From a virus, in IMG/VR virus record IMGVR_UViG_3300021962_000810, positions 1-20,523 of that record: a DNA stretch of 20,523 nucleotides, one strand, 5' to 3'. How positions within the stretch are numbered: position 1 is the stretch's first letter; each line of letters opens with the position of its first letter. Positions 205 through 18,770 of this stretch are shown piece after piece. Below the pieces are notes generated by a model, which worked only from the letters and a program-made list of their open reading frames with translations, made no database searches and was not told the origin of the DNA. The translations under genes were made by a program, and so were the position numbers.

Positions 205-209
205 CCACT

Positions 210-647: not shown

Positions 648-650
648 CCT

Positions 651-2168: not shown

Positions 2169-2169
2169 C

Positions 2170-5249: not shown

Positions 5250-5420
5250 AGCGTAAAACTACTCTCTATCAAGGAGATCGCACAGACGCTCGGGACTCAT
5301 CCCGAGACCGTGCGTCGCTGGATCAGGGATGGTCGGCTTCCAGCCATGAAGGCAACGAAGCGCACGATCCGTGTTCGCTCCGACGTCATCGAGCAACTAC
5401 TCCGAAACAACAACAAATGA
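5247..5420 (+). CDS. small MerR/excisionase-type helix-turn-helix protein
   Basis: A 57-residue DNA-binding protein. LLSIKEIAQTLGTHPETVRR followed by WIRDGRLPA is a clear winged-HTH of the MerR/excisionase type: the helix-turn-helix, then the W-I-R-x-G-x-[LI]-P strand typical of these proteins, and a basic wing. I chose the GTG at 5247; a TTG at 5211 in the same frame would add 12 unlikely residues and overlap the putative promoter. The stop overlaps the ATG of the RecT gene (ATGA at 5417-5420), so the two are translationally coupled. It may be a transcription regulator of the recombination operon or an excisionase. No integrase is seen in the window, which favours the regulator reading. Confidence 0.8.
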   Translation: MSVKLLSIKEIAQTLGTHPETVRRWIRDGRLPAMKATKRTIRVRSDVIEQLLRNNNK

Positions 5421-6972: not shown

Positions 6973-6996
6973 CAACAGCAACACACATCCCAACAC

Positions 6997-7416
6997 ATGA
7001 AATTCAAAGTCGATCGTTCCCAAGCCGAAGTTAAGCCGTTTGCCGGTCCCGGCGAATACACCATCGTCATCCAGTCCGCCAAGGACGAGGGTCTCGACAA
7101 GAGCGGTAACAGCGTCGCCACGCTGCGATACAAGGGCACTGGTGGAGAAGTCATCAGCGACCGCTTCATCCTCAAGGACACCATGATGTGGCGTCTGCAG
7201 GCGTTGATCAGCGCGACTGAAGCCAACATCGATGACGGTGCCGAGTTCGATTTTAGCGTCGGAGGAGCATTCACACGGTTCCTCCAGGGCTTCGTTGGGC
7301 TGTCGATGATCGTCGTCCTCGAAGAGGAGAAGTACACCGACAAGCAAGGTCAGGAGCAGACCGCTCTGCGTGTTCGTCGGATGAAGAAGGTGCCGTCCGA
7401 TAACGACACCATCTAA
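6997..7416 (+). CDS. DUF669-like protein, possible ssDNA-binding accessory
   Basis: A 139-residue, mostly beta-strand protein. The order of elements fits the phage DUF669 family, which is often encoded beside RecT/RecE or single-strand annealing systems: PGEYTIVIQSAKDE near the N-terminus, a strand-rich middle (ISDRFILKDTMMWRLQAL), then FLQGFVGLSMIVVLEEEKYT and a final ALRVRRMKKV strand. A single-strand-binding role is suspected for the family but I cannot confirm it here. It follows recE by 24 bases, a gap filled with CAAC-type A/C-rich sequence and no Shine-Dalgarno site. A strong hairpin follows the stop codon. An OB-fold SSB would be the main alternative call. Confidence 0.6.
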   Translation: MKFKVDRSQAEVKPFAGPGEYTIVIQSAKDEGLDKSGNSVATLRYKGTGGEVISDRFILKDTMMWRLQALISATEANIDDGAEFDFSVGGAFTRFLQGFVGLSMIVVLEEEKYTDKQGQEQTALRVRRMKKVPSDNDTI

Positions 7417-7430
7417 CCACTAAACAAAAG

Positions 7431-7456
7431 CCCCCGGAGGTTGCAGCCTCCGGGGG
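7431..7456. terminator. strong GC hairpin after the recT-recE-DUF669 unit
   Basis: CCCCCGGAGG (7431-7440), a six-base loop TTGCAG and CCTCCGGGGG (7447-7456) form a perfect 10-bp stem 14 bases after the stop of the preceding gene. On the + strand no T-run follows. On the - strand the stem is followed by CTTTTGTTT, so it looks more like an intrinsic terminator for leftward transcription, or a Rho-assisted or mRNA-stabilising hairpin for the rightward transcript. The next gene on the + strand starts 39 bases later. Confidence 0.55.
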
Positions 7457-7494
7457 TGACATGAGTCCAAAACAACAAAGCGCAACGACACGCT

Positions 7495-8985
7495 ATGCAA
7501 CTGAGACCGTACCAAGAAGAGTGTGTGGGTCAAGTCTTCCAGTCTTGGGAAGATTATCAACGATCGCTGATCGTCATCCCCACTGGTGGCGGGAAGACCA
7601 TCGTCTTCGCTCACATAGCCAATCGCGCTCAGGGTCGCACCCTCATCATCGCGCACCGCGAAGAACTCCTTCAGCAGGCCAAGGACAAGATCAAGCAGGC
7701 CGTCGGTCGAGACGCTGCACTCGAACGCGCTGAGGACTTCGCGGGTCCAGAGTTCCGTATAGTTGTCGGATCCATTCAAACCCTTCTACGCCGACACAAT
7801 CGGTTCGATCCCGATTACTTCACCAACATCATCATCGACGAGGCGCATCACGTTGCAGCCGACTCGTACCAGAGCGTTCTAAGCCACTTTCCGCAGGCCA
7901 ATATCCTCGGGGTCACCGCAACCCCAGATCGCTCCGATAAGAAACAGCTCGGGTCATTCTTCGAGAACGTCGCCTACGAGGTCACACTCCTCGATCTCAT
8001 CAAGCAGGGCTATCTCGTACCCATCAAAGCCCGTGTCTGCGATGTCTCCATCGATCTCACCAAGGTCAAGTTCCACGCCGGCGACTTCGATGCCAATGAC
8101 ACCGCTCACGCCATCGAGCCGTACCTCGAACGCATAGCAGCCCAGATCAAGCAGTTCGGCGGGAAGAAGACCATCGTGTTCCTGCCGCTCATAGCCACAT
8201 CGGAGAAGATGACCTCCATCTGCCGCGCAATCGGCCTCGATGCCGAGCACGTGGATGGCACCAGCACCGATCGTAAAGAGATCCTCAAGCGTTTCTCCCA
8301 GAAGCAGCGCGGAGTCCTCTGCAATGCCATGCTACTGACCGAGGGGTACGATGAGCCTAGCATCGACACCATCGTCTGCCTGCGCCCCACCAGAAGCCGC
8401 TCACTCTACACCCAGATGATCGGTCGCGGCACCCGGCTGCATGCCGGCAAGACCCATCTCACCATCCTCGACTTCCTATGGATGACCGGACGCCACAAGC
8501 TCGTGCGTCCCACGCGCCTCATCTCCCAGGATGAGATCGGAGACATCGCTGATGAACTCACGGCCAAGCAGGGCGAGTTCGATCTCCAGGAGGTCGTCAA
8601 CGACGCGGTGATACAGCGCGAGAATGCGTTGGCCAAGCAGTTGGCTCAGAAGAAGAAGCTGTCCGGGAAGACCATCGATCCGCTAGAGTTCGCCTTGTCG
8701 ATCCACGACACAACGATGGCCGACTGGGAACCGACCATGCCGTGGCACTCGCAGCCGGTCACTGAATCGCAGGCCAAGACACTCAAGAGCTTCGGGTTCT
8801 CAACCGACTCGATCACCTGCCGCGGTCAGGCCAGCGCGGTGCTGGATCGTGTGATGAATCGAGCGGCCCTGAAGCTCGCCACACCCAAGCAGGTTCGCTG
8901 TCTGACCCGTTTCGGAATCAAGAACGCGCACACATGGAAGTTCGATGCGGCCTCCCAATTCCTGTCGAAGGCATTCCAACGATGA
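7495..8985 (+). CDS. SF2 DNA/RNA helicase (DEAD/DEAH, ResIII type)
   Basis: A 496-residue helicase with superfamily 2 motifs in order: LRPYQ at residues 3-7, Walker A PTGGGKT (29-35), DEAH box IIIDEAHH (112-119), motif III VTATP (140-144), and in the second RecA domain EGYDEP and motif VI QMIGRGTR near residues 305-315. Known relatives unwind or remodel nucleic acid during phage replication and recombination. After the core there is a C-terminal extension ending in two similar ~35-residue segments: TESQAKTLKSFGF...GQASAVLDR and ATPKQVRCLTRFGI...DAASQFLSK. These look like a tandem DNA-binding module. The ATG follows a CAAC-type leader without a Shine-Dalgarno site. The stop overlaps the next gene (ATGA). 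Confidence 0.9.
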   Translation: MQLRPYQEECVGQVFQSWEDYQRSLIVIPTGGGKTIVFAHIANRAQGRTLIIAHREELLQQAKDKIKQAVGRDAALERAEDFAGPEFRIVVGSIQTLLRRHNRFDPDYFTNIIIDEAHHVAADSYQSVLSHFPQANILGVTATPDRSDKKQLGSFFENVAYEVTLLDLIKQGYLVPIKARVCDVSIDLTKVKFHAGDFDANDTAHAIEPYLERIAAQIKQFGGKKTIVFLPLIATSEKMTSICRAIGLDAEHVDGTSTDRKEILKRFSQKQRGVLCNAMLLTEGYDEPSIDTIVCLRPTRSRSLYTQMIGRGTRLHAGKTHLTILDFLWMTGRHKLVRPTRLISQDEIGDIADELTAKQGEFDLQEVVNDAVIQRENALAKQLAQKKKLSGKTIDPLEFALSIHDTTMADWEPTMPWHSQPVTESQAKTLKSFGFSTDSITCRGQASAVLDRVMNRAALKLATPKQVRCLTRFGIKNAHTWKFDAASQFLSKAFQR

Positions 8986-9119
8986 ACACCGCCCTGACAA
9001 TCATCTCCATGGCCGTGCTGATGCCCCTCTGCGTGATCGCAGGCATCTACGTAGGCCACACTCTCACCATCCGGTCCCAACAAACCAAAACCAATGAGCA
9101 AAACAATCGTAGCCTGTGA
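8982..9119 (+). CDS. 45-residue single-span membrane protein
   Basis: A short frame overlapping the helicase stop (ATGA) and running 26 bases into the resolvase gene. It encodes one hydrophobic helix (TIISMAVLMPLCVIAGIYVG, residues ~7-26) followed by a polar tail rich in Gln, Thr and Asn. Both overlaps and the clean transmembrane pattern favour a real gene. The likely location is the inner membrane with a cytoplasmic C-terminus, by the positive-inside reading of the single Arg after the helix, which is weak evidence. No function can be named. A holin is unlikely because it has no lysis neighbours and a single short span. Confidence 0.55.
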   Translation: MNTALTIISMAVLMPLCVIAGIYVGHTLTIRSQQTKTNEQNNRSL

Positions 9120-9549
9120 CCCCGGCGTGAACGGCGGGTTCGCTGTCCAGACCAAGGACGGCATCCTACTGTTCCCAATGCCCGAGTCACTCCCCGACAT
9201 GGCGCAACTCCTCACCGGCTTCAAGCTGGCCGATTCCCACATGTGGATCGAGAAGGTGCCCAAGTTCGTGTCCAAACTGACCCCGGCCTCTGCGGTCGCC
9301 ACGCTCCACGAGAACTACGGCATCATCCAAGGACTGGCCTACGCCACCGGCTACGCGCTGCACCGCGTGGAACCCAAGGTCTGGCAGGAACCCCTCGGAC
9401 TCGGCGGTCGCAAGGCATGCGCCACGGGTCCTGAGTGGAAGCGCAAGCTCAAGTCCAAGGCCCAGGAGCTGTACCCGCACCTCGATGTGACGCTCGGCAA
9501 CGCGGACGCGCTGCTGATCCTCCACTACGCCCAGGGAGGTGGCCGATGA
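9094..9549 (+). CDS. RuvC-like Holliday junction resolvase
   Basis: A 151-residue RNase H-fold nuclease of the RuvC type. The first acidic residue lies in ACDPGVNGGFAV (Asp9), the second in MWIEKVPKF (Glu53) and the third in LGNADALLI (Asp138). Between them, ENYGIIQGLAYATGYALHRV-type sequence followed by PKVWQ is typical of phage RuvC relatives. The enzyme would cut four-way junctions made by RecT-driven recombination or branched replication intermediates before packaging. A fourth acidic residue (Asp131 or nearby) was not assigned with certainty. Its ATG follows the leader CCAACAAACCAAAACCA, with no Shine-Dalgarno site. Confidence 0.82.
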   Translation: MSKTIVACDPGVNGGFAVQTKDGILLFPMPESLPDMAQLLTGFKLADSHMWIEKVPKFVSKLTPASAVATLHENYGIIQGLAYATGYALHRVEPKVWQEPLGLGGRKACATGPEWKRKLKSKAQELYPHLDVTLGNADALLILHYAQGGGR

Positions 9550-9695
9550 GCGAGCTGGCCAAGAAGCTGAATCAGCAGGGTACCGGCGTGTACCAGCTTA
9601 CCCGCAAGGAAGCGGGCGAGGCATACCGCGCTGCGAAGAAGGTCAAAGCGTATCAGATCACGTACTGGAACCGGAAGAAGAAGGAGGCGAAATGA
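9546..9695 (+). CDS. small basic hypothetical protein
   Basis: A 49-residue Lys-rich protein (LAKKLNQQGTGVYQLTRKEA, then AYRAAKKVKAYQITYWNRKKK). The ATG overlaps the resolvase stop (ATGA) and is preceded by GGAGGTGG at 3-base spacing. The basic charge and aromatic residues suggest nucleic-acid contact (inference). It opens the cassette of tiny genes and is the first of seven consecutive starts with a clear purine-rich ribosome site. Confidence 0.6.
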   Translation: MSELAKKLNQQGTGVYQLTRKEAGEAYRAAKKVKAYQITYWNRKKKEAK

Positions 9696-9889
9696 GTGAC
9701 AACAAGTCAGAGACTGTACGTCTCACATTCAAAGGGCTGCTGTCCATCTACTTGCCCGAGAAGACGATGATGGAAGTCTACAACGCCATCGAGCTGTCCT
9801 GCCGTAGAAATAACTGGGGCATCGCAATCGACGAGAGCAACCGATTGGACTTCGTTCCGATGGTGAAGGTGGTGGAGGGCGAGCAATGA
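9692..9889 (+). CDS. small hypothetical protein
   Basis: A 65-residue protein starting at ATG 9692, inside an ATGA overlap with the preceding stop and with AAGGAGG 5 bases upstream. A longer frame extends upstream, but the internal ATG is favoured by the coupling and the ribosome site. The sequence looks like a compact alpha/beta fold: a short strand (TVRLTFKGLLSIYL), a helix (MMEVYNAIELSCRRNN), and a final strand (LDFVPMVKVVEGE). No family is recognised. The stop overlaps the next ATG. Confidence 0.6.
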   Translation: MSDNKSETVRLTFKGLLSIYLPEKTMMEVYNAIELSCRRNNWGIAIDESNRLDFVPMVKVVEGEQ

Positions 9890-10260
9890 ACGGCACACCG
9901 AGAACGGACCAGATGGAGCAACACGCTCCTGTGGGTCTACGCAGGAACTCTGCGTTTGAACAAGCATCTGATTTGTGCCGCCAACTCGAACGCGAACTAA
10001 ACGCGGCCAATGCAGACGTTGAGCGACTCACCAAATCCAATCTGCAACTCCGCGAAGGCTGCGAGGGGCTGAAGCAACGCATCAAGCGGCTGGAGGACTG
10101 CATCGAAACCGCATGGGGAATCATTGCCAATGTAAGCGGCGGTGATTGGACCCGACAGAAACCTCATTGGCAGGAAGCTGTTGTTCGATGGAGGGACAAC
10201 GACTTCCATCCGATCATGAAAGAACTGTCAGAGCGCAAAGCCAAGGAGGCCAAGCTGTGA
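9886..10260 (+). CDS. coiled-coil protein, TPRTD family copy 1
   Basis: A 124-residue protein with TPRTD at residues 4-8, then FEQASDLCRQLERELNAAN and a leucine-spaced coiled coil to about residue 75, ending in a Trp-rich segment and a Lys/Glu tail. The order TPRTD ... RQLERxL ... AN is repeated in the 95-residue protein at 10998-11285, so the two are paralogues. The ATG follows GGAGGGCGAGCA and sits in an ATGA overlap. The coiled coil suggests oligomerisation or partner binding. Function is unknown. Confidence 0.65.
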   Translation: MNGTPRTDQMEQHAPVGLRRNSAFEQASDLCRQLERELNAANADVERLTKSNLQLREGCEGLKQRIKRLEDCIETAWGIIANVSGGDWTRQKPHWQEAVVRWRDNDFHPIMKELSERKAKEAKL

Positions 10261-10463
10261 GAAGATCAACCGAAACACTGATCGCAGCCATGCGGATTCT
10301 GTCTCAGGATATTCAATCCGACGATGGAGTGGCCAACGATTTCATTGCTGAAGCAGCCCAGCGACTGGAGGAGCAGCATATGCGAATCACCCAACTAGAG
10401 CAGGAGAACGACGCTCTGAGAGCCGATCTGCTGCTGTGGGAGAATGGAGGGCCGTTGCCGTGA
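10257..10463 (+). CDS. small helical protein, DGxAN family copy 1
   Basis: A 68-residue protein read from GTG 10257 (GTGA overlap, AAGGAGG 8 bases upstream). Residues ~8-35 read AAMRILSQDIQSDDGVANDF followed by IAEAAQRLEE. The same pattern (ALKILAQQIHSEDGAANVV, then AEAADRI) is seen in the gene at 12748-12993, so these are paralogues. The C-terminal half is a coiled coil (ITQLEQENDALRADLLL). I do not know a function. Its coupling to both neighbours marks it as part of one translational unit. Confidence 0.65.
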   Translation: MRRSTETLIAAMRILSQDIQSDDGVANDFIAEAAQRLEEQHMRITQLEQENDALRADLLLWENGGPLP

Positions 10464-10651
10464 GTAGCATTTCACTTTTAGAACAATGTATGTACGGACT
10501 TGTGGCCGGTTGTTTTATGTCCTTAGCAATCCTGTGGGGCGATCAGCTTGGCAAGAGCAGTATGCGCGAAGAAGCCGTAAGGAAAGGCCACGCTGAGTGG
10601 GTGGTCGATTGCGCGGGTAAAAATCAATTCAAATGGAAGGAGTGCAAATGA
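10460..10651 (+). CDS. small membrane-anchored protein
   Basis: A 63-residue protein from GTG 10460, with GGAGGG at 9-base spacing and a GTGA overlap. It has one hydrophobic span (CMYGLVAGCFMSLAILWG, residues ~9-26) and then a soluble tail, AVRKGHAEWVVDCAGKNQF followed by KWKEC. A segment of this kind (Ala-x-x-x-Gly-x-Ala-x-W ... F-x-W-K) recurs in small phage proteins in my experience, but without assigned function. The tail is probably cytoplasmic. Membrane location is inferred from the hydrophobic segment. Confidence 0.6.
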   Translation: MSSISLLEQCMYGLVAGCFMSLAILWGDQLGKSSMREEAVRKGHAEWVVDCAGKNQFKWKECK

Positions 10652-11001
10652 GCGAACCAATCTACTTTTCAACCAACAGCCACCCGATATCCAACCCAAC
10701 GACGCAGATCATGCGGGTCGATCTGGATGGTGGGTTCACGGTCAATGAATCCATACCCGCTACTGATGCAGCCAAAGAAGTGCTTCGGATTATGAAGGAG
10801 CAATGGTTTGCCGACGCACAGGCCACAAAGATCCGCGAACTCCAATCCGATGTGAACGAGCTGAAGGAGCTGGTCGAGTACCTGCAAGATCGGATCAGGA
10901 AGATGAAGATGGCTGGAGACGACTTGGACTCATGGCTAGGCCGAGAAACACCAGTCACGGTGCGAATCAACTGGAGACGGGTCAAGGAGGTGAAGCTGTG
11001 A
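10648..11001 (+). CDS. small coiled-coil hypothetical protein
   Basis: A 117-residue protein from ATG 10648 (ATGA overlap, AAGGAG 5 bases upstream). The N-terminus is a strand-like region (MRVDLDGGFTVNESIPATDA), followed by a long helix with heptad-like Leu/Ile spacing (KIRELQSDVNELKELVEYLQ, then DRIRKM) and a short basic end (INWRRVKEVKL). No family is recognised. The start at 10633 in the same frame was rejected because it lacks coupling. Confidence 0.6.
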   Translation: MSEPIYFSTNSHPISNPTTQIMRVDLDGGFTVNESIPATDAAKEVLRIMKEQWFADAQATKIRELQSDVNELKELVEYLQDRIRKMKMAGDDLDSWLGRETPVTVRINWRRVKEVKL

Positions 11002-11285
11002 ACCATCTTGTTAACGCCAACAAAAAGGTCGTCAGCAAAACACCGCGCACAGACCGACAGACGTACATCAATGTAGCATTTCAACAGTACGTCAAAATCG
11101 GCTTCGCCCGTCAGCTAGAGCGGCAACTGGCTGGAGCGAACAAGCGGATCATCGAGCTAGAGAAGGAGAACGAACGCATCCACAGATTGGAACGTGCTGG
11201 CGATATGCTGTGCGCTGCTGCCGCCTTCCTAGGCTGGCATGGTGAGATTGAGCAATGGAACAAGGTGAAGGGGCAGAAGCCATGA
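10998..11285 (+). CDS. coiled-coil protein, TPRTD family copy 2
   Basis: A 95-residue protein from GTG 10998 (GTGA overlap, AAGGAGGTGA upstream). It carries TPRTD at about residues 15-19, FARQLERQLAGANKRIIELE and a coiled coil continuing to about residue 70, then an Ala/Leu-rich segment and a polar end. It parallels the 124-residue protein at 9886-10260, but the C-terminal parts differ. The duplication within 1 kb suggests a small family diversifying in this cassette. Function is unknown. Confidence 0.62.
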   Translation: MNHLVNANKKVVSKTPRTDRQTYINVAFQQYVKIGFARQLERQLAGANKRIIELEKENERIHRLERAGDMLCAAAAFLGWHGEIEQWNKVKGQKP

Positions 11286-11497
11286 ACGTCCCCATCGGCC
11301 CTGCCGCATACGTCTTCAAGCACAAGAGAACCGGACAAGTCGTCGTCGTTCCTAGCGAACAATGGAATGAGTATTGGTTCCATAAGGACTGGGAACACAC
11401 GGCCAGCCTCAACGCCTGCGGCGCAATCCAATACCTCATCAACGTCAAACCGAAGGAGCGGAACCGATATTTGAGATCACTCACCGAAAAGGTATGA
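11282..11497 (+). CDS. small hypothetical protein
   Basis: A 71-residue protein from ATG 11282, overlapping the previous stop and preceded by AAGGGG. The sequence opens with VPIGPAAYVFKHKRTGQVVV, probably two beta strands, followed by an aromatic-rich segment (WNEYWFHKDWEH) and a helix ending ERNRYLRSLTEKV. It resembles a small alpha/beta domain, but I recognise no family. It is the last gene in the run with a purine-rich ribosome site. Confidence 0.55.
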   Translation: MNVPIGPAAYVFKHKRTGQVVVVPSEQWNEYWFHKDWEHTASLNACGAIQYLINVKPKERNRYLRSLTEKV

Positions 11498-11703
11498 CCC
11501 TCCTGCTCCACGAACTCCCGCACCATCACCACCTCCGAAACTCCGCACTCAACACAATCGACGTTCGCATCCGGTGCCGACACACCAAGTCGAGCCGCGA
11601 CCCGAGAACGTGGAAGATCAAGAACAACAGCTACAACGAACTCAATGATTCCTGGCAGACGAACTTCGACTTCATCGTCACCGTCGCCAGCGACCAACAA
11701 TAA
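11494..11703 (+). CDS. small hypothetical protein with His cluster
   Basis: A 69-residue frame coupled to the previous gene by ATGA. The N-terminal part is LLLHELPHHHHLRNSALNTI, with a cluster of five histidines, followed by a strand-rich polar segment (WKIKNNSYNELNDSWQTNFD, then FIVTVAS). The alternating hydrophobic pattern at the end looks coding, but support is mainly positional. Only a weak AAAAGG precedes the start. The long antisense frame here (11149-11880) is judged a shadow. The His cluster could bind metal, but no second ligand group is apparent. Confidence 0.45.
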   Translation: MTLLLHELPHHHHLRNSALNTIDVRIRCRHTKSSRDPRTWKIKNNSYNELNDSWQTNFDFIVTVASDQQ

Positions 11704-11704
11704 A

Positions 11705-11965
11705 ATGAACCAGCTAGCAAGATTTGGGTTGACCAAGGAGTCGATGCAGCGCATGCTCGGCACCGTCACCGTCACCACCACGGCAAAGAAACGGGAGATT
11801 CCTCCCGGTCCTAACCGTAAGTGGTACAGCGTTCCAGACGACATCAAGACAGCTATCCTCGAAGCCCACCCAACCTCCACCTACCGTGAGTTGGCCAAGA
11901 AGTATGGCGTGTCCCTAACCAGCGTATGGAAAATCAAGAACCAAAACCAAAACAACAAGAAGTAG
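11705..11965 (+). CDS. small helix-turn-helix protein
   Basis: An 86-residue protein starting at ATG 11705, two bases after the previous stop codon (TAAAATG). Residues ~58-80 read TYRELAKKYGVSLTSVWKIK, a standard helix-turn-helix of the resolvase/homeodomain-like type. The middle is basic and Pro-rich (KKREIPPGPNRKWY). It probably binds DNA and may regulate phage or host genes. The final 40 bases overlap a second gene in another frame starting at 11926. The leader is A/C-rich (GCGACCAACAATAAA) with no Shine-Dalgarno site, the pattern of the next several genes. Confidence 0.65.
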   Translation: MNQLARFGLTKESMQRMLGTVTVTTTAKKREIPPGPNRKWYSVPDDIKTAILEAHPTSTYRELAKKYGVSLTSVWKIKNQNQNNKK

Positions 11966-12105
11966 AGGAACTACAACGATGGAAGCAGTTATGTCACGAA
12001 TTGGCCGCATGCTTGGGCTGCGGCTGCACAACTCAGACCGGCCTGTGCATGCAGTGCCACAAAGCCAACAAACGATACAGAGCAGTCCAAATACCCCTTC
12101 GATGA
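11926..12105 (+). CDS. 59-residue Cys-rich (zinc-ribbon-like) protein in overlapping frame
   Basis: ATG 11926 opens a frame inside the end of the preceding HTH gene and stops with TGA at 12103-12105, giving 59 residues. The N-terminus is polar (MENQEPKPKQQEVEELQRWK). The second half has the cysteine pattern CLGCGC-x7-CMQC followed by HKANKRYR, which is typical of a small zinc ribbon or zinc knuckle with a basic tail. The stop is in an ATGA overlap with the next HTH gene at 12102, which strongly supports both frames. The competing frame here (from 11979) gives unremarkable sequence over the same bases. It may act with the neighbouring HTH proteins. The metal role is inferred from cysteine spacing. 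Confidence 0.65.
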   Translation: MENQEPKPKQQEVEELQRWKQLCHELAACLGCGCTTQTGLCMQCHKANKRYRAVQIPLR

Positions 12106-12494
12106 AACTCCGCGAGTCCATAAACCAAGTCACCGAACTCAGATCAAAGGGCCACACATACAAGGCCATTGGCCAACAACTCGGGTTCACCAAGCAGCGA
12201 GTCCACCAGATCCTACGATCTGCCAAGACGCTCAAGGAGAATGAGGCGCTCTGGACCAACGGACTCAGTGCCCGCAACGTGGCAATTCTCTCGAAGCTTC
12301 ACATCACCTCACGCGAGGTAGCCATCCACGCGATCAAGACCGGTGACATCAGGCCATTCAAGTGGGCCAACTACGGTGCCACTTCCTACACCGAACTCTG
12401 CGAGTGGCTAGGCATTCAGCCGGTCGCCAACACCGCAAACAGCCGAAGCTCACGCGCATCCAAGGTCTGCCCGCACTGCAACAAACCCCTATGA
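12102..12494 (+). CDS. helix-turn-helix protein with C-terminal CxxC
   Basis: A 130-residue protein. I place the start at ATG 12102 rather than 11979 because 12102 forms ATGA with the stop of the Cys-rich gene, and the residues before it read as a shadow of that gene. The N-terminal HTH is GHTYKAIGQQLGFTKQRVHQ (residues 17-36), close to sigma-70 region 4-like and related response-type helices. The middle contains TSREVAIHAIKTGDIRPFKW, and the end carries CPHC (about 124-127), a single CxxC knuckle. It is probably DNA-binding. With the two genes before it, it makes a cluster of three putative regulators. Confidence 0.68.
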   Translation: MKLRESINQVTELRSKGHTYKAIGQQLGFTKQRVHQILRSAKTLKENEALWTNGLSARNVAILSKLHITSREVAIHAIKTGDIRPFKWANYGATSYTELCEWLGIQPVANTANSRSSRASKVCPHCNKPL

Positions 12495-12751
12495 GCCGAC
12501 ATTCATTCCCGCTCGTCGAATCCATCAAGGTGGTCACCCTCTCAGGCGGGATCACCGTCCGAGTGTGGCGTGATCGAACCAAAGAGAACCTGAAGACCAA
12601 CTACGGCGACGGTGATATCCACCTCACCTGCGTGGCCCAAGCTCATGATCACTTCGAGATGATCAAGACCCTGGCCCGCTTGGAGAATGTTCGAGCCGTT
12701 GAGTTGGTCGATCAGAAAGGCAACGGAATCAAAGTCCACAAACAACCATGA
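12491..12751 (+). CDS. small beta-rich hypothetical protein
   Basis: An 86-residue protein from ATG 12491 (ATGA overlap). It has alternating strand-like stretches (SIKVVTLSGGITVRVWRD and DIHLTCVAQAHDHFEMIKTL) and ends in VRAVELVDQKGNGIKVH, suggesting a compact beta or alpha/beta domain. There is no recognised family. The leader CAACAAACCCCT lacks a Shine-Dalgarno site, so translation may rely on coupling. The stop overlaps the next start. Confidence 0.58.
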   Translation: MSRHSFPLVESIKVVTLSGGITVRVWRDRTKENLKTNYGDGDIHLTCVAQAHDHFEMIKTLARLENVRAVELVDQKGNGIKVHKQP

Positions 12752-12993
12752 GCCACTCCTCGACACGCGACCTTGCAAGCGCCCTCAAGATCCTGGCCCA
12801 ACAGATCCACAGTGAAGACGGCGCAGCCAACGTCGTCTGCGCTGAAGCCGCCGACCGGATCCTTCTGCTCGTCACCCTCACCAACGAACTGACAGCACAC
12901 ATCCTGGCCAGCCCAATCCACCACCCCAAATGCACAGCCAAGACCAAGGGAAGCTACTGTAATTGCATCCTATCCCGGGTGACACCATCATGA
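12748..12993 (+). CDS. small helical protein, DGxAN family copy 2
   Basis: An 81-residue protein from ATG 12748 (ATGA overlap, leader CCACAAACAACC). Residues ~8-38 (LASALKILAQQIHSEDGAAN, then VVCAEAADRI) match the gene at 10257-10463. Downstream the copies differ: this one has a hydrophobic helix (LLLVTLTNELTAHILA) and a His/Cys-containing tail (HHPKCTAKTKGSYCNC) that could bind a metal. The two copies lie 2.5 kb apart with other genes between, so this is a dispersed, not tandem, duplication. Confidence 0.6.
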   Translation: MSHSSTRDLASALKILAQQIHSEDGAANVVCAEAADRILLLVTLTNELTAHILASPIHHPKCTAKTKGSYCNCILSRVTPS

Positions 12994-13256
12994 AAACCCC
13001 ACGACACGAGCAGCCATGGTACTCATGCCGGCTCGAAAACAACAAGAAGCCTGAACCACTCACCGAAGAAGAGAAGACCATCATGAGCGGTGTGAACCGC
13101 AAACTCATCGAAGACGCCCCACGCCTCATCGCCTACGGAGTTCAGAAAGGATGGATCTCCTACCCCAAGAAACCACGCACCCAACACACATGGATAACCA
13201 AGGACAGCCCACCGCTCGAACAGGACGATTCGTCAACATTCACAACGGATCCGTAA
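12990..13256 (+). CDS. small hypothetical protein
   Basis: An 88-residue protein from ATG 12990, in an ATGA overlap with the preceding stop. It starts KTPRHEQPWYSCRLENNKKP and contains a helix (EEEKTIMSGVNRKLIEDAPR) followed by a Lys/Pro-rich stretch and an acidic/Ser/Thr tail. I recognise no family. The last 67 bases overlap the next gene in another frame, so one of these two boundaries could be wrong. The coupling at its start supports its reality. Confidence 0.52.
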   Translation: MKTPRHEQPWYSCRLENNKKPEPLTEEEKTIMSGVNRKLIEDAPRLIAYGVQKGWISYPKKPRTQHTWITKDSPPLEQDDSSTFTTDP

Positions 13257-13390
13257 TCGTCGAAGTCATAGGCCAAGGACAGTACCGTCTAGGAGAGACC
13301 CGCCGCACTGTAACCATCTACAGTCGAGACGGGTCTCTTTTCGTCCGCAATTCCCAAGAGTTCCATCGAGTCTTCAAAGAACTCAAGTAG
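13190..13390 (+). CDS. small beta-barrel-like hypothetical protein
   Basis: A 66-residue protein that I start at ATG 13190, preceded by CACCCAACACAC and no Shine-Dalgarno site. It overlaps the end of the previous gene by 67 bases. The sequence FVNIHNGSVIVEVIGQGQYR, then RRTVTIYSRDGSLFV, alternates short strands and turns as in a small SH3- or OB-like barrel. It ends with a helix (QEFHRVFKEL). A long hairpin with a T-run is embedded in its coding region. It is the last gene before the primase-helicase. Function is unknown. Confidence 0.5.
   Translation: MDNQGQPTARTGRFVNIHNGSVIVEVIGQGQYRLGETRRTVTIYSRDGSLFVRNSQEFHRVFKELK
13294..13341 (+). terminator. terminator-like hairpin inside a coding region
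   Basis: AGAGACCCG (13294-13302) pairs with CGGGTCTCT (13330-13338). Inside this, ACTGT (13307-13311) pairs with ACAGT (13320-13324), and the T-run TTTT (13338-13341) overlaps the end of the stem. The whole structure lies within the gene at 13190-13390, about 75 bases before the primase-helicase start. It has the shape of an intrinsic terminator or attenuator. It might limit read-through into the replication gene, or it may be a coincidence of coding sequence. Confidence 0.4.
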
Positions 13391-13413
13391 TCCGAACCCA
13401 GCAACGCAACGAC

Positions 13414-15270
13414 ATGACAACGCTCCTCGAACGAGCGGCGCTTTGGCTCGCCAAGGTACCGCCAGCCATCTCCGGATCCGGAGGGCACTCGCAAACCTAC
13501 ACCGCCGCCGTTGGCCTAGTCCACGGCTTCGGCCTTTCAGACACCGACGCATTCGCGCTCCTGTCCGATTGGAACCGCTCATGCCAACCTCCATGGCAGG
13601 ACCGCGAACTCCTCCACAAGATCCGACAGGCCAATGAGAAGTCCCACTCCAAGCCCCGCGGCCACCTCGCCAATTCCTCAAGCACCGTGTCCATTGAGCC
13701 ATTGGACCTGACACGGGTCCGATTCAGCAGGCCAAAGCCCGTGGAGGCTACGCAGAAGGCCGAGGTGTCTACGGAGCCCTCCGCGCCATCAAACCCGCCC
13801 GCAGCCCCCATCCCGGCCTCGCACGATGCCTCGGAGTTCAAGCGGTTCCTCACATCCGCCTTCGCGCCCACCGAGGTGGTCTGCATCTGCGAGCAGGTCG
13901 AGGACGGTACCCCCATGACCAGCGGATCCTTCCTGCCCGTCGAGGATTGGATCGCCCGCTTCGATGACCCCGAGTCCATCCTCTTCCGACCCGATCGGAA
14001 TCAGGGCGTCTTCGTCCGCATCAACCCGTTCAAGCCCAACCTCTACAGCGGCTCCGACAACGATGTCATGGCCTACCGCCATGTCCTGGTGGAGTTCGAT
14101 CAGAAGCCCAAGGCCGAGCAGGAACAGCTCCTCCGCTCATCGGGCCTGCCCATCAGCGTCCTCATCGACTCCGGTGGCAAATCCATCCACGCATGGGTCC
14201 GGGTCGATGCACCCAATCGCAAGGAATGGGACGCCCGCAGGGATGCCATCTACGCGGCCATCCCCGATGTCGATCCCAAGAACAAGAACCCATCGCGCTT
14301 CTCCCGGCTCCCGGGCGCATGGCGGGGCGAAGAGAAGCAGAAGCTGTTGGCCAGCAACCTGGGCGCTCGCTCGTGGGAAGAATGGCTCACCGATCGGGAG
14401 ACCGATGATGACAAGGCCACCGTCGTCACGGTCAAAGACCTCATCAACTTCGATCCCGACAAAGATCCGGACAACCTCATCGGCAAACGGTGGCTTACCC
14501 GCGGATCCTCCATGATCATCTCCGGTGGCACCGGCATCGGAAAGTCATCCCTCATGATGCAGATCGTCATCCAGTGGGCCATGGGCAGAGACTTCTTCGG
14601 TGTTGCACCAGTGCGACCACTCCGCATCGGTATCGTGCAAGCAGAGAACGACAAGGGCGACCTCGCAGAAGCCTTCAGGGGCGTCATCAAGGGGCTCAAT
14701 ATGCCCACTTCCGATATCTACACCCTCCAGGAGAACCTCCACTTCAGGACCGAGGCCGTCCGCACCGGTGACGCGTTCCTCGCCTACGCCCGCCGGTTCA
14801 TCACCAGATCGAAGCTCGATGTCATCATCGGTGACCCGCTCTTCTCCTACTTCGGTGGCGATCTGTCGGACCAAGGCGAGGTCAGCGTGTTCCTACGGAA
14901 CAAGCTCCAGCCCATCCTCCACCAGACCAAGGTCGCTTGGATCTGGATGCACCACATCTCCAAAACCCAGCGCAAGGACGGCGAACCCATGACCACCATG
15001 GAGCTCGCCCACTCCGGGTTCGGATCCAGCGAACTCGCCAACTGGGCGCGAGAGATCGCCGTGTTGGTAGAAGTAGGCCAGTCGAAGCCCCGTCGGTTCC
15101 AACTGGCCTTCTGTAAGCGGGGATCAAGGCTGCCGTCTAATACCCTCAACCTTCAGCATTCTCCCAGTGAGATCGTATGGGAGCAGTGGAACCCGATGGT
15201 GATGACAGGGGCTCAACTGAAGGAACCGAGTGGTAGGAAGGGAGCTTATCCCAAAAGGCGGGGTCCTTAG
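13414..15270 (+). CDS. primase-helicase (AEP-like primase fused to RepA-type ATPase)
   Basis: A 618-residue replication protein. Residues ~1-75 match an N-terminal module common in phage and plasmid primases (PPAISGSGGHSQTY, LVHGFGLSDTDAFALL, then CQPPWQDREL). Residues ~190-310 look like an archaeo-eukaryotic primase core: HVLVEFD (223-229) and SGGKSIHAW (253-261), then NPSRFSRLPGAWR. The C-terminal half is a RecA-like ATPase of the RepA/AAA_25 kind, with Walker A SGGTGIGKSS (370-379), Walker B DVIIGDP (469-475) and WMHHISKTQRK. It would make primers and unwind DNA at the phage origin. The ATG follows CAGCAACGCAACGAC. The last ~40 codons overlap an antisense gene. It follows a 23-base gap after the preceding stop. 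Confidence 0.82.
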   Translation: MTTLLERAALWLAKVPPAISGSGGHSQTYTAAVGLVHGFGLSDTDAFALLSDWNRSCQPPWQDRELLHKIRQANEKSHSKPRGHLANSSSTVSIEPLDLTRVRFSRPKPVEATQKAEVSTEPSAPSNPPAAPIPASHDASEFKRFLTSAFAPTEVVCICEQVEDGTPMTSGSFLPVEDWIARFDDPESILFRPDRNQGVFVRINPFKPNLYSGSDNDVMAYRHVLVEFDQKPKAEQEQLLRSSGLPISVLIDSGGKSIHAWVRVDAPNRKEWDARRDAIYAAIPDVDPKNKNPSRFSRLPGAWRGEEKQKLLASNLGARSWEEWLTDRETDDDKATVVTVKDLINFDPDKDPDNLIGKRWLTRGSSMIISGGTGIGKSSLMMQIVIQWAMGRDFFGVAPVRPLRIGIVQAENDKGDLAEAFRGVIKGLNMPTSDIYTLQENLHFRTEAVRTGDAFLAYARRFITRSKLDVIIGDPLFSYFGGDLSDQGEVSVFLRNKLQPILHQTKVAWIWMHHISKTQRKDGEPMTTMELAHSGFGSSELANWAREIAVLVEVGQSKPRRFQLAFCKRGSRLPSNTLNLQHSPSEIVWEQWNPMVMTGAQLKEPSGRKGAYPKRRGP

Positions 15271-15784
15271 TCGCTTCCTGCAATTTGCGGAAGTTCTCTT
15301 CCTTTGCCCTCTCCACCAGCTCCTCAGGATCCACATCCGGGGAGCTTTTCTCTTCCTGAGCCTCAGCGTCTGAGTCGGCCACATCTCTGGAACCCTTCCG
15401 CCGACGCAACGTCCCGATCATCTGCCGCAGCTTACGGTCCTCAGACCTCAGCGAGGATATATCACGCTTCATCTCAGTGATCATTGCCAATAGCATTGAT
15501 ACCTTATCAACTTCCTCGGCAGGAACCCAATCACAACCACGCCACTGGCGATGGATTCGATCATATATCAATACGCCGCTCTTTATGTTACGCATCGAAT
15601 TGAACGAGCGGATCGCCTTACCGAGATCGCATCGGAGGTTGTCCATTATGTAGGCCAGAACCTCGGATCGGCTCGGGTCGATGTCGTGCCTCATCGGCGG
15701 CATCAGGCGGAACATGGCGCGGAGGGTGGAACCATTCTCTAGATAACTCATGGTAGAACCAACGTAGCTTCCATCAGGACGCAT
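15146..15784 (-). CDS. coiled-coil acidic protein, antisense overlap with primase-helicase 3' end
   Basis: A leftward 212-residue protein. The N-terminal ~85 residues are mixed (MRHDIDPSRSEVLAYIMDNL, then RCDLGKAIRSF), possibly a small helical domain. Residues ~92-125 form a coiled coil (VDKVSMLLAMITEMKRDISS, then LRSEDRKLRQMI), followed by a basic patch (RRRKGSR), an acidic linker and a Pro/Ser-rich tail. The composition is protein-like, and no rightward frame of similar quality covers 15271-15784. Its last 125 bases lie opposite the end of the primase-helicase gene. The start may be ATG 15784 or the ATG at 15751; neither has a clear Shine-Dalgarno site. The coiled coil and basic patch suggest a DNA- or partner-binding regulator. 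I recognise no family. Confidence 0.62.
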   Translation of the reverse strand: MRPDGSYVGSTMSYLENGSTLRAMFRLMPPMRHDIDPSRSEVLAYIMDNLRCDLGKAIRSFNSMRNIKSGVLIYDRIHRQWRGCDWVPAEEVDKVSMLLAMITEMKRDISSLRSEDRKLRQMIGTLRRRKGSRDVADSDAEAQEEKSSPDVDPEELVERAKEENFRKLQEATKDPAFWDKLPSYHSVPSVEPLSSPSGSTAPIRSHWENAEG

Positions 15785-15846
15785 GTCAAGGAAGCAGAAA
15801 TAAACCCTAATCGTGGCACCAGAATCTTATCCACCCCCCCCGCTAT

Positions 15847-15888
15847 CTCCCCTAAAAGGGAGTCTTAATACTCCCTTAAAAGGGAGTC
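15847..15888. repeat. alternating CTCCC/GGGAG repeats
   Basis: AAAAGGGAGTC occurs at 15854-15864 and again at 15878-15888, with the inverse ACTCCCTT (15870-15877) between them and CTCCC (15847-15851) ahead. The middle copy can pair with either flanking copy, giving two mutually exclusive hairpins of about 8 bp. Such an arrangement can act as a switch in RNA or as a protein-binding array. It lies between the start of the leftward coiled-coil gene and the large hairpin at 15901. Confidence 0.6.
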
Positions 15889-15900
15889 AAAAATAGCATC

Positions 15901-15952
15901 GCCGAGACGCTGCGGGGGCGTTTTAAGACGCCCCGCGCTCGGCGGCAATTTT
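15901..15952. terminator. large hairpin with T-runs, possible bidirectional terminator
   Basis: GCCGAG (15901-15906) pairs with CTCGGC (15938-15943). Inside it, GGGGCGT (15915-15921) pairs with ACGCCCC (15928-15934). On the + strand TTTTT follows at 15948-15952; on the - strand CTATTTTTG follows a few bases beyond the other end. It could stop the rightward transcript that reads on from the primase-helicase gene. It could also stop leftward read-through from the operon at 16.5-18.2 kb, keeping that operon separate from the coiled-coil gene. Confidence 0.55.
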
Positions 15953-16169
15953 TGAGAACCCCCGATTCCGGATTGCGAAACTTGGAAGCAGTGGATCCCG
16001 AGGGTAGGAGGTAGGGGTATCGGAGCACTGAAACCGGAATGGTTGGTCCGATGGATGGATATGGATGCCTCGCAATCGAGCGGAAAGGGGTCGCCAGTGC
16101 GTCGGAGGGGTTCTTCCGCATCAAATTGCGAAAGCGGGGTCTGCGGGGCTGGAAATCGAAGGGCCGAAA

Positions 16170-16280
16170 CCGCTCCATTCTGCCGCTCCATTCAACCCAT
16201 GGATGGTTGGCCCACTCGATCCCGCTCCACGATGAGGTATCGGGGCATTAGCATTTCTAATTTCCGAATTCCGAATTCCG
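16170..16280. repeat. short direct repeats (iteron-like) in the non-coding region
   Basis: CCGCTCCATTC occurs at 16170-16180 and 16183-16193, with a partial copy CCGCTCCA at 16222-16229. TGGTTGG appears twice, near 16040 and near 16204. The heptamer unit ATTCCGA/AATTCCG is tandemly repeated at 16261-16280. Repeats of this size and spacing can be initiator-binding iterons, but they may be unrelated low-complexity sequence. Confidence 0.5.
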
Positions 16281-16444
16281 TATGGCTTATGGAAGATTGG
16301 GGAATAGTGATAAATCGGGGGGGGGGCGGACGCGGGAGCTTGTGACATACGGTGGCGGGCGCTTGTGTTAAATCGGAGCCGTTGGACATTGGGTGTCCTA
16401 GGGGGGCTGGCGATCGGCAAGGAAGGAAGGGAGCGGATCCGGGC

Positions 16445-16474
16445 AAAGAAAAGCCCCTAGGGGGAACCTAGGGG
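16445..16474 (-). terminator. intrinsic terminator of the leftward operon
   Basis: CCCCTAGG (16454-16461), loop GGGAA and CCTAGGGG (16467-16474) form a perfect 8-bp stem. Read leftward it is followed by CTTTTCTTT (16453-16445), a good U-run. It starts 24 bases after the stop of the last leftward gene, where a terminator of that operon is expected. Confidence 0.75.
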
Positions 16475-16498: not shown

Positions 16499-16591
16499 TC
16501 AGCCATTCCCGGCGAGGGCCGATAGGAACATGAGACCGACGAAGAAAGCGCCGAGGAGGAGGTAGCCAAGGGCACGAAAGAGGTCGGTCAT
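16499..16591 (-). CDS. 30-residue membrane microprotein
   Basis: A 93-base frame on the - strand, too short for usual gene calls. The ATG (16591-16589) overlaps the stop of the preceding leftward gene (ATGA). The product is a single hydrophobic helix (ALGYLLLGAFFVGLMFLSAL, residues 7-26) with a short MTDLFR head and a GNG tail. The operon terminator begins 24 bases after the stop. Coupling, position and the clean membrane pattern support it. A single-pass microprotein of this sort could modulate a membrane protein or act as a small inhibitor. Function is unknown and there is no homology that I recognise. Confidence 0.6.
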   Translation of the reverse strand: MTDLFRALGYLLLGAFFVGLMFLSALAGNG

Positions 16592-16782
16592 TCCAAAGCC
16601 TCGATTAAAAGCGAAAACTCCCGGAGGGTGTCGCTTGACGTATACTCGGGGCGAAGGGTGACAACCCTTCCTTCACGGAAGGATATCGTCGCCCCGTTGT
16701 TTCGCTTCGCGCCCCATGCATTAAACATACGGGAAAACTCCCGGGCGTGCTCCTCGAGTAGGAAAGTGTGGGTTGTTTTCAT
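16588..16782 (-). CDS. small hypothetical protein
   Basis: A 64-residue protein. I use the ATG at 16782, two bases after the stop of the upstream gene (TGATCATG); the same frame extends upstream but would overlap that gene. The product, KTTHTFLLEEHAREFSRMFN followed by a beta-like segment (ATISFREGRVVTLRP) and a C-terminal helix (TLREFSLLIEALE), looks like a small alpha-beta-alpha fold. Its first codons resemble those of the upstream gene (both ATGAAAAC, encoding MKTT). It shares a stop/start overlap with the downstream microprotein gene. No function is recognised. Confidence 0.6.
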   Translation of the reverse strand: MKTTHTFLLEEHAREFSRMFNAWGAKRNNGATISFREGRVVTLRPEYTSSDTLREFSLLIEALE

Positions 16783-16784
16783 GA

Positions 16785-17018
16785 TCAGATCATGCCAAGG
16801 GCGATCAGAAGTGAAGGGCACCCATGGGAGCAGCGCCCGTCGGGTTCGACAATGCAACCCTCAGTGCAGCACGCAGGACTTGTACCCTCGAACATAGCAT
16901 GGCGGGCGTATTCAAAAGCGCCGTCTTCCGACGGCTCCCAACCCTCGTTTTCAAGCGCTTCCATGGCGCTGATTCGGTACGGGTTGCGGGTTGCGGTAGG
17001 GACTTGTGTGGTTTTCAT
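16785..17018 (-). CDS. small Cys-rich conserved phage protein
   Basis: A 77-residue protein starting at ATG 17018 (leader CCCATTCAAAAC). Residues 1-45 are polar with a helix (YRISAMEALENEGWEPSEDG). The end holds ACCTEGCIVEPDGRCSHGCP, with Cys at 50, 51, 55, 63 and 67, followed by SLLIALGMI. I recognise the C-terminal pattern (CCxEGCxVEPDGxCxHGxPSxL) from small phage and bacterial hypothetical proteins, with no assigned function. The cysteines probably bind zinc. It is one of two Cys-rich proteins in this operon. A longer frame to 17078 exists but lacks support. Confidence 0.65.
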   Translation of the reverse strand: MKTTQVPTATRNPYRISAMEALENEGWEPSEDGAFEYARHAMFEGTSPACCTEGCIVEPDGRCSHGCPSLLIALGMI

Positions 17019-17079
17019 GTTTTGAATGGGCTTCAATTGCCCGCACAACCCACGGTTACCCATGGGCTGGCCGGGCAAT

Positions 17080-17790
17080 TCAAGCGATCAAAGCGGGCAT
17101 ATCAATGAAATGCCGGGCTCCGGTCCCGTGAACGGGAATGTGGATTGAGCGCTGGCCAGTCCTAGCGCCCGCGCAGGCGAGACACTCCGAACATGGGGTT
17201 CCGACCCGATCGGAGGCGCAAAGAGTCTCGATCGAGTGGTGATCGAGGTCTGGTGTCACACGGAAGGTTGACCAGCCCATGCTGCGGGCAATGAGGAGTT
17301 CGGCCGCAGTGTCCACACTGGCCATTAATAGTTGCTTCCAACCCTGCAGACTAGGCTTGCGCCATTGGTGCGTATAGCCTGTCCACCCAGATGAAGCGCC
17401 GGCGATCGCGAGGGCGAGGCTAAGAGGGAGATGCGTGGGGTCGCCATAGGCTCCGAAGCGGACCCGTCGGCCGGTGAAACACTCGAGAGAGCGCAAGGGA
17501 GAGTATCGGCCCGCTTTCCACGCCTTCCAAATCCCTTGGGGGGCTTGGCCAGGATTTACGTAGCATGATCGGCCTACTCCGAAGCGACCGTTTTCTTCGT
17601 GCCCGCGATGCATGCAATTGCCGCAGATTAATCTGTCAAGTCCCGTGCGTATCGCTTCGGTAGGGGAAACGGATTTCACTAGGATCCACACTTGGATCAT
17701 GTCGCCGGTCTTCCGATTGTCGGAAGGGGACTCGAAGCCCGTCGCAATGATCACACGATGCTGGTCTTCGTGGATAATGAAACCGTTCAC
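17080..17790 (-). CDS. conserved phage protein with CxxC motifs, unknown function
   Basis: A 236-residue protein, the largest of the leftward operon. I recognise it as an unnamed family found in many phages. Its ordered motifs are GDMIQVWIL (29-37), CGNCMHRG (Cys56, Cys59), SCYVNPGQAPQGIWKAW (Cys76), RFGAYGDP (111-118), GWTGYTHQW (135-143), MASVD (156-160), GWSTFRV (172-178), and Cys191 with CSECLAC (200-206) before HIPVHG. Seven cysteines in conserved positions suggest two metal sites or an Fe-S cluster. The GDP and HQW segments recall a TIM-barrel enzyme (inference). The GTG start at 17790 overlaps the preceding stop (GTGA) and has GGAGGT 5 bases upstream. Confidence 0.72.
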   Translation of the reverse strand: MNGFIIHEDQHRVIIATGFESPSDNRKTGDMIQVWILVKSVSPTEAIRTGLDRLICGNCMHRGHEENGRFGVGRSCYVNPGQAPQGIWKAWKAGRYSPLRSLECFTGRRVRFGAYGDPTHLPLSLALAIAGASSGWTGYTHQWRKPSLQGWKQLLMASVDTAAELLIARSMGWSTFRVTPDLDHHSIETLCASDRVGTPCSECLACAGARTGQRSIHIPVHGTGARHFIDMPALIA

Positions 17791-17981
17791 TGGAGACCTC
17801 CTTCGGCAATGGGGGCGATCGATCGAAGCAAGGCGCTAGGAACGGGCCGATCGGTGTCAACGTATCGGGCATGCGACTTATACTTGTGGCCTCCGGATTG
17901 CAGTGATCTCCCATAGCCCGTCCAAGTCAGGCGGACCCGTCGCCCGTTGACCTCTGCAATGACACCCTCAAAGGAGAACAT
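17787..17981 (-). CDS. small beta-rich hypothetical protein (start uncertain)
   Basis: From ATG 17981 the product is 64 residues: MFSFEGVIAEVNGRRVRLTW followed by TGYGRSLQSGGHKYKSH and a polar end. It looks like two or three beta strands and a basic loop. Three in-frame GTG codons upstream (first near 18041) would add a Cys-containing segment (CTRRYGHCYVHAC), so the true start may be earlier. The ATG has no Shine-Dalgarno site. Its stop overlaps the GTG of the 236-residue gene, which supports it as part of the operon. No function is recognised. Confidence 0.55.
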   Translation of the reverse strand: MFSFEGVIAEVNGRRVRLTWTGYGRSLQSGGHKYKSHARYVDTDRPVPSALLRSIAPIAEGGLQ

Positions 17982-18076
17982 GGATTGGCGCACACAAGCG
18001 TGCACGTAGCAGTGCCCGTATCGGCGGGTGCATTGCACGTAGGCGATCAGGTTTGGCAGGTAGTGTTCGGGAGGGT

Positions 18077-18190
18077 TCAAAGGGAACCTCCGATCCAAAG
18101 GGATTGCTCCCGGAGCCCGTTGACGATGACGATTGAGATGATCGCGAGCCAAAAGAGGGTCGCGAGAATGCGTTTTGCGCGTGGTTTCAT
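18077..18190 (-). CDS. 37-residue single-span membrane protein, first gene of leftward operon
   Basis: From ATG 18190 the product starts with a basic head (MKPRAKR), then a hydrophobic helix (ILATLFWLAIISIVIVNGL, residues 8-26), then a short polar tail. The basic N-terminus predicts the head inside the cell. It lies 11 bases left of a perfect dyad and ~37 bases left of a good leftward -10/-35 pair, so it is the promoter-proximal gene of the operon. Together with the 30-residue protein at the end of the operon it brackets four soluble proteins. Function is unknown. Confidence 0.6.
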   Translation of the reverse strand: MKPRAKRILATLFWLAIISIVIVNGLREQSLWIGGSL

Positions 18191-18200
18191 GATTTGAAAG

Positions 18201-18217
18201 GAACCGACTATCGGTTC
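18201..18217. promoter_or_regulatory. operator-like dyad downstream of the leftward promoter
   Basis: GAACCGACTATCGGTTC is a perfect 7-bp inverted repeat with a 3-base centre. It lies just after the predicted leftward transcription start (about 18220) and before the ATG at 18190, the usual place for a repressor site. The binding protein is not known. Confidence 0.55.
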
Positions 18218-18226
18218 ACGGGAGAG

Positions 18227-18255
18227 AGAATCGCAAAGGATCGCACACTTGTCAA
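18227..18255 (-). promoter_or_regulatory. sigma-70-type promoter for the leftward operon
   Basis: On the - strand, TTGACA (18255-18250) is a perfect -35, followed after 17 bases by GATTCT (18232-18227), a partial -10 (3 of 6). Transcription would begin near 18220, run through the dyad at 18201-18217 and reach ATG 18190. On the + strand the same bases read TTGTCA (18249-18254), which could also serve as a weak rightward -35 with TATTTC at 18270-18275. Confidence 0.55.
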
Positions 18256-18283
18256 TACTCACGCACAAATATTTCAGGGTGGT

Positions 18284-18304
18284 TCACTTTGTGGGGCAAA
18301 GTGA
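18284..18304. promoter_or_regulatory. operator-like dyad before the terminase genes
   Basis: TCACTTTG (18284-18291), five bases, then CAAAGTGA (18297-18304) form a perfect 8-bp inverted repeat ending 4 bases before the ATG at 18309. It would block transcription or translation initiation of the small terminase gene if bound or folded. The sequence GGTTCAC occurs beside both this dyad and the leftward one. Confidence 0.55.
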
Positions 18305-18308
18305 GGGC

Positions 18309-18770
18309 ATGGGTAGGAAGGAGAATAAGGAAGCGAAAGAGACGGAAAGCGCCGTCCAGGTTGTGGAGGGGAAAACACCTTCGATTCGTCCCTCCGGTTA
18401 CGTCAAAAAAAATGGTCCCGATCCCAAGACGGTCTCCGCTTCCGACTGGGCCCGCGTCTTGGATGCCGCTTCCTTGGGGCTTCCGCTTGAAAGGCTATGG
18501 GCTCTTTCAGGAATGAGTGACAAGACGTTCACCAAGTACCTTTCCCGCTTCCCGGAGAAAGCGAAGGAGATCGAAGGAGCCCGGTCTCGGGGCGAGTATG
18601 ACCTCACCTCCGTCGTTCGATCCTGCGGACCAGGTTGGCAAGGAAGCGCTTGGCTACTGGAGCGAACCCGAGGCTACGTAGCAAGAGCTCAACTCGAACA
18701 CACTGGTAAGGGAGGGAAGGAACTCTCAGTATCCGGAGCCCTACTCGGAGCATTCGGAGGAGGGAAATAG
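18309..18770 (+). CDS. terS: terminase small subunit (DNA recognition)
   Basis: A 153-residue protein immediately before the large terminase gene. I start it at ATG 18309; a TTG at 18249 in frame would run through the operator region. Residues ~55-85 form a helix-turn-helix (LGLPLERLWALSGMSDKTFT, then KYLSRFPEKAKE), typical of small terminases that bind the packaging site. The central helices (ARSRGEYDLTSVVRSCGPGW) and a segment ending WLLERTRGYVARAQLEH fit the oligomerising part. The C-terminus is Gly-rich. It forms a ring that recognises phage DNA and regulates the motor. The assignment rests on the HTH, position and general pattern. Confidence 0.75.
   Translation: MGRKENKEAKETESAVQVVEGKTPSIRPSGYVKKNGPDPKTVSASDWARVLDAASLGLPLERLWALSGMSDKTFTKYLSRFPEKAKEIEGARSRGEYDLTSVVRSCGPGWQGSAWLLERTRGYVARAQLEHTGKGGKELSVSGALLGAFGGGK

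Follow-up and report, generated by a model that had tools for sequence, protein, structure and literature searches.

A leftward phage operon with a constant three-gene frame, variable cargo and a putative role at the host membrane

What might a tailed phage gain from a leftward block of genes that begins and ends with membrane proteins of only 30–37 residues? This question is raised by IMG/VR virus record IMGVR_UViG_3300021962_000810, the whole of which (20,523 nucleotides, a 20.5-kb record) is the window analysed here. Its rightward part encodes RecT together with an exonuclease VIII-like nuclease and two further enzymes, a RadD-like helicase and a primase-helicase; the genes for TerS and TerL come next, at 18.2–20.4 kb, and six leftward genes, here called A to F, occupy 18190–16499 (Table 1). 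A preliminary description of this DNA had read them as an accessory module, possibly for superinfection exclusion, host takeover or anti-defence, and as the best candidate in the window for an undescribed system. The relatives of this virus are tailed phages of ∼37 kb, including G001 (37,372 bases), in which TerL lies at both ends. The window TerL is nearest to those of Akkermansia phages, at only ∼36% identity, and one relative of protein C lies on a Chthoniobacterales MAG contig; these matches only hint at a Verrucomicrobiota host, and a search for a close prophage as a host clue found none. Most rightward genes of the window (e.g., those at 5417, 6997, 7495, 12748 and 13414) have A/C-rich leaders before their starts and no Shine-Dalgarno-like site, and no sigma-70-like promoter was found at 1–15000, where shuffled sequences average 5. 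The terminase gene of relative G005 (G005:C1:28504-30087) has one in-frame TGA within the match, which may be an assembly error.

Table 1. Positions of the six genes and of the associated transcription signals in the window.
Feature	Position	Strand	Description
Gene A	18190-18077	(-)	37 aa; first gene; single-span membrane microprotein by hydropathy
Gene B	18080-17787	(-)	97 aa; TTG start overlapping the A stop; rare cargo
Gene C	17790-17080	(-)	236 aa; GTG start; Cys-rich; PHROG 2554; DUF7227-like fold (model)
Gene D	17018-16785	(-)	77 aa; Cys-rich; ACCxEGCxVEPDGxCxHGCP
Gene E	16782-16588	(-)	64 aa; rare cargo
Gene F	16591-16499	(-)	30 aa; last gene; single-span membrane microprotein by hydropathy
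Promoter	18227-18255	(-)	-35 TTGACA 18255-18250; 17-nt spacer; -10 GATTCT 18232-18227
5' leader hairpin	18201-18217	(-)	GAACCGA-TAG-TCGGTTC; 17 nt; between promoter and first start codon
Intrinsic terminator	16454-16474	(-)	CCCCTAGG-TTCCC-CCTAGGGG + T tract

Across relatives, pN/pS was 0.30 for A, 0.22 for B (8 sequences), 0.26 for C, 0.29 for D, 0.36 for E (4 distinct sequences only) and 0.35 for F, with high pS (0.60–0.65) for C, D and F in this comparison. As judged from these values, each below 0.4, the six leftward frames are real genes under purifying selection, although not all of them are small as originally described, given the length of C. The stop/start overlaps attributed to the set were found at A/B, B/C and E/F (4 nt each), whereas D and E lie 2 nt apart and C and D are separated by a 61-nt gap.

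Shared transcription signals, which the preliminary description had also proposed, recur in relatives. The promoter was missed by a generic scan, and its -10 element fits only 3 of 6 positions. Nevertheless, 33 of 57 distinct loci have, upstream of A, TTGAC followed by A, C or T, a 17-nt spacer and a T-ending hexamer, with TTGACA or TTGACT, 17 nt, and then TTTAAT, CTTAAT, TTTACT, GATTCT or similar in the relatives. In G001, the same position scores best among the TTGAC-type sites listed. Behind F, with one mismatch tolerated, 84 of 85 relatives have a stem and T tract with compensatory stem changes, and a stricter test without mismatches detected them in 39 of 57 distinct flanks, compared with 6.8% of shuffled flanks. 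By these conserved signals, the six genes form one transcription unit. The hairpin in the 5' leader begins ∼3 nt past the expected transcription start, and its position would be that of 5'-stabilising hairpins. Its covariation (0.442 in 11 distinct sequences) exceeded the shuffled mean of 0.128, with 0 of 500 shuffles as high and slid versions reaching at most 0.164. A DNA operator at this position was considered and is disfavoured, because the hairpin sequence changes while the pairing stays. In loci with other genes ahead of A, a different 17-nt hairpin often stands directly in front of A.

Several features were observed around the operon. The TerS start is probably the ATG at 18309, which immediately follows an inverted repeat (TTCACTTTGT-GGG-GCAAAGTGAG, 18283–18309) that recurs in relatives. 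Between the terminator and the leftward coiled-coil gene cc212 (15146–15784, minus strand), some 670 bases (15785–16453) hold no convincing gene, which is unusual for a compact phage genome, and a GGAATTCGGAATTCGG repeat lies near 16265–16280 within this gap. Upstream of cc212, at 15845–15890 (minus strand), are the near-identical palindromes CTCCCTTTTAAGGGAG and CTCCCTTTTAGGGGAG, which are operator-like and are also present in G001 and G005. By 125 nt, the cc212 gene itself overlaps the primase gene antisense at the 3' end of the latter; it has homologues in 26 of the 32 complete loci and a pN/pS of 0.52. In some relatives, a C5 cytosine DNA methyltransferase gene (L082:4296-5246) is located downstream of F, between F and cc212.

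Not all six genes are equally constant. Because C or D served as bait in fetching the loci, the presence of C follows from the design. Of the 32 distinct loci that include both flanks, all have C and F, 13 have D, 3 have E, 2 have B, and 6 have a window-like A. An A-class microprotein gene was located upstream of C in all 57 distinct loci. These comparisons indicate that the operon is a three-gene frame, A-C-F, with variable cargo (B, D, and E), and that bracketing by membrane microproteins, with the spans called by hydropathy, is genuine and invariant across the clade. The bracketing first proposed is thus upheld, but a fixed set of six genes is not. It would be possible to regard the small frames as chance ORFs in G+C-rich DNA, as small ORFs are common in the window and E has 4 distinct sequences, but this is highly improbable given the conserved order, overlaps and terminator, the pN/pS values of all six genes, and the presence of F in 32/32 and of A-class genes in 57/57 loci.

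The cargo genes gave few clues from known families. Profile searches found no family match for B. The AlphaFold2 model of D was poor (pLDDT 59), and 124 pattern matches to D in bacterial genomes included none confirmed as D. D-like Cys-rich proteins (L175:4001-4150 and L204:3001-3192) are encoded by LR756500, a huge phage of 462 kb, and by a Streptomyces plasmid. None of A to F matched PADLOC-DB 2.0 models at E ≤ 0.1, and no operon member matched Pfam or NCBIfam. The proposal of an undescribed system is only partly borne out: C belongs to a catalogued family, PHROG 2554, which usually occurs without membrane microproteins beside it, and the six genes are not found as a fixed group.

A-class proteins have 34–37 residues, a basic N terminus, a single hydrophobic span by hydropathy, and a C-terminal Gly-Gly, the codons of which form the ribosome-binding site (GGAGG) of the next gene; F homologues have 29–33 residues. 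Given that this GGAGG lies in the last codons of A, that the A stop overlaps the start of the next gene, and that A follows a conserved hairpin, A could be mainly a regulatory leader frame, the translation of which opens the next gene while the protein itself is functionless. We consider this quite unlikely, since the hydrophobic span is kept in 57/57 loci despite sequence divergence and pN/pS for A is 0.30.

In 20 loci whose TerL shares 97% identity or more with that of the window, some of which are the same contig fetched twice, we found three A types with a median identity of 39% between types, while F was 80–100% identical, C 72–100%, and TerS had a median of 58%. A was the most divergent part measured in these loci, indicating by sequence comparison that A alleles are exchanged among phages with near-identical TerL. 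Such exchange, among phages that otherwise hardly differ, would point to an arms race centred on the target of A. However, the TerS identities imply that the whole region recombines, and given that the terS-primase region is variable as a whole, the exchange of A need not result from such a race. One A type resembles F (LLRALGFLAL), a score reached by 0.2% of class-preserving shuffles, while the other three A types tested against F were not clearly similar (35%, 5% and 16% of shuffles reached the score). Common descent of A and F is thus possible, and clear for one A type only.

Two microproteins, single-span by hydropathy, in one operon, with one A type resembling F, also bring to mind holin-like or antiholin-like peptides with which A and F would time lysis. 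A lysis role is unlikely because a holin is encoded elsewhere: relative G001 has a gene for a Phage_holin_10 protein in its structural region, at a distance from the operon. Moreover, the operon has its own promoter and adjoins no endolysin that we found. A lysis cassette as the main reading was accordingly rejected on the basis of the holin in G001.

Protein C offers the most extensive comparisons. It matched PHROG 2554 (E = 2.8e-63, 215.7 bits) over 221 residues, as did all 42 aligned relatives, although C covers only positions 299–521 of the 529 in this profile. The family is widespread in phages and listed as function unknown, and a literature search on DUF7227, PF23872, PF17338 and PHROG 2554 found no paper. 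Relatives of C were present in 147 annotated phage records, which include mycobacteriophages and Gordonia, Klebsiella, Microcystis, Roseobacter and Ruegeria phages, and in 501 stretches from uncultivated viruses, as well as on cyanobacterial and Methylobacterium plasmids and in bacterial contigs. Unlike in the arrangement described here, no membrane microprotein is tightly coupled to the gene in mycobacteriophages and in phages of Gordonia and Klebsiella. Outside this clade, such a microprotein was found in 5 of 29 phages, compared with 6 of 117 control ORFs, and in three lineages only, so that a wider association between C and microproteins is a lead, too weak to claim. These lineages, which are unrelated (L158–L162, L169 and L098), each have the membrane microprotein gene tightly coupled beside the C homologue.

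The AlphaFold2 model of C was confident (pLDDT 89.2, pTM 0.86). In Foldseek searches, it had no match in the PDB at E ≤ 0.001, including solved radical SAM structures; against viral models, it shared the fold of DUF7227 (probability 1.00, E = 5.4e-7) and was weakly similar to one GP88 model (probability 0.80, E = 0.034). At the sequence level, C fell below the curated cut-offs of both families. For DUF7227 (PF23872, cut-off 27 bits), the window protein was unmatched and 19 of 42 C relatives matched weakly (best E = 0.00028), with a best score of 15.4 bits, below cut-off, in another search. For GP88 (PF17338, cut-off 24.4 bits), there was no match in four records carrying C. Among 289 bacterial genomes, 8 had GP88 matches, mostly below cut-off, and since the frames that we read were DUF5131-type proteins, GP88 itself is not represented in that sample.

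Residues invariant in 42 diverse C sequences include C56, C59, C76, C191, C200, C203, C206, H141 and H221, and the protein has RxGxYGDP-, GYTHQW- and MASxD-type motifs. The seven conserved cysteines suggest metal or Fe-S binding. In our own reading of the model and alignment, C recalls the order of radical SAM/DUF5131 proteins: an N-terminal Cys loop, a helix, a strand with a GGEP-like YGDP motif, more beta/alpha units, and a late Cys group. C could be the business end of the operon, a radical-SAM-like or other Fe-S enzyme that would modify a nucleotide, an RNA or a host factor (e.g., in counter-defence), with the N-terminal C56, C59 and C76 for a catalytic cluster, the C-terminal C191, C200, C203 and C206 for an auxiliary cluster, and A and F in a secondary role. 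Its occurrence in many phages without A and F is consistent with this view, as are the invariant cysteines and the YGDP motif after the Cys loop. However, zinc would account for the cysteines equally, and neither a PDB fold match nor a DUF5131 profile match was found, so that we regard an enzymatic core as the main alternative, but a rather unlikely one. Membership of C in the radical SAM family as such was rejected, given that the window protein has CX2C with the third cysteine 17 residues further (CX2C-X16-C) instead of CX3CX2C, that no fold in the PDB matched, and that a profile-profile comparison with DUF5131 (PF07505), represented by 17 DUF5131-type sequences, gave an hhalign probability of 0.1.

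Our leading interpretation, held tentatively, is that the operon is a membrane-acting accessory unit for superinfection exclusion or host takeover. Consistent with this interpretation are the conserved promoter, leader and terminator, the presence of an A-class gene in 57/57 and of F in 32/32 loci, purifying selection, A alleles with ∼39% identity, variable cargo together with an adjacent C5 methyltransferase, and a holin located elsewhere. On the other hand, there was no PADLOC match, other phages mostly have C without a membrane microprotein beside it, the terS-primase region is variable, and the spans were called by hydropathy only. The accessory character first proposed thus gained from the operon's own promoter and terminator, variable cargo, A exchange and the methyltransferase that sometimes occupies the neighbouring slot, with exclusion, takeover and anti-defence as candidate roles. 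Superinfection-exclusion membrane proteins such as T4 Imm are small, phage-encoded and made apart from virion genes. Imm-type proteins are larger and have a demonstrated phenotype, whereas A and F have 30–37 residues, are paired, and are known here from sequence.

By its sequence signals, this is an independently transcribed accessory operon of a ∼37-kb tailed-phage clade, with A translationally coupled to the next gene and with a sigma-70-like promoter that host RNA polymerase may read early or constitutively. A and F would insert in the host inner membrane with the N terminus inside and alter a membrane step of the host or of an incoming phage, while C would be a cytoplasmic protein, with bound zinc or an Fe-S cluster, that acts on a small molecule or a target in the host. 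The most likely outcome would be that the entry of competing phages is blocked, or that host membrane functions are tuned during takeover.

The anatomy of this operon is solid at the sequence level, and is conserved beyond what the preliminary description could see. Only A, F and the Cys-rich C stay constant in a slot whose other genes turn over, and one gene, A, is exchanged among near-identical phages, which provides a natural experiment. The operon also places the widespread, unsolved PHROG 2554 family in a compact genetic setting. More speculatively, and with a low probability in our view, A, F and a phage-wide Fe-S (radical-SAM-like) C could act jointly at the host membrane as a new counter-host module, with A as the exchangeable specificity part; if true, PHROG 2554 and its DUF7227/GP88 relatives in hundreds of phages would thereby gain a function. 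Finally, these results suggest that very short phage membrane proteins, which usually go unannotated, can be among the components of an accessory operon that are best conserved.
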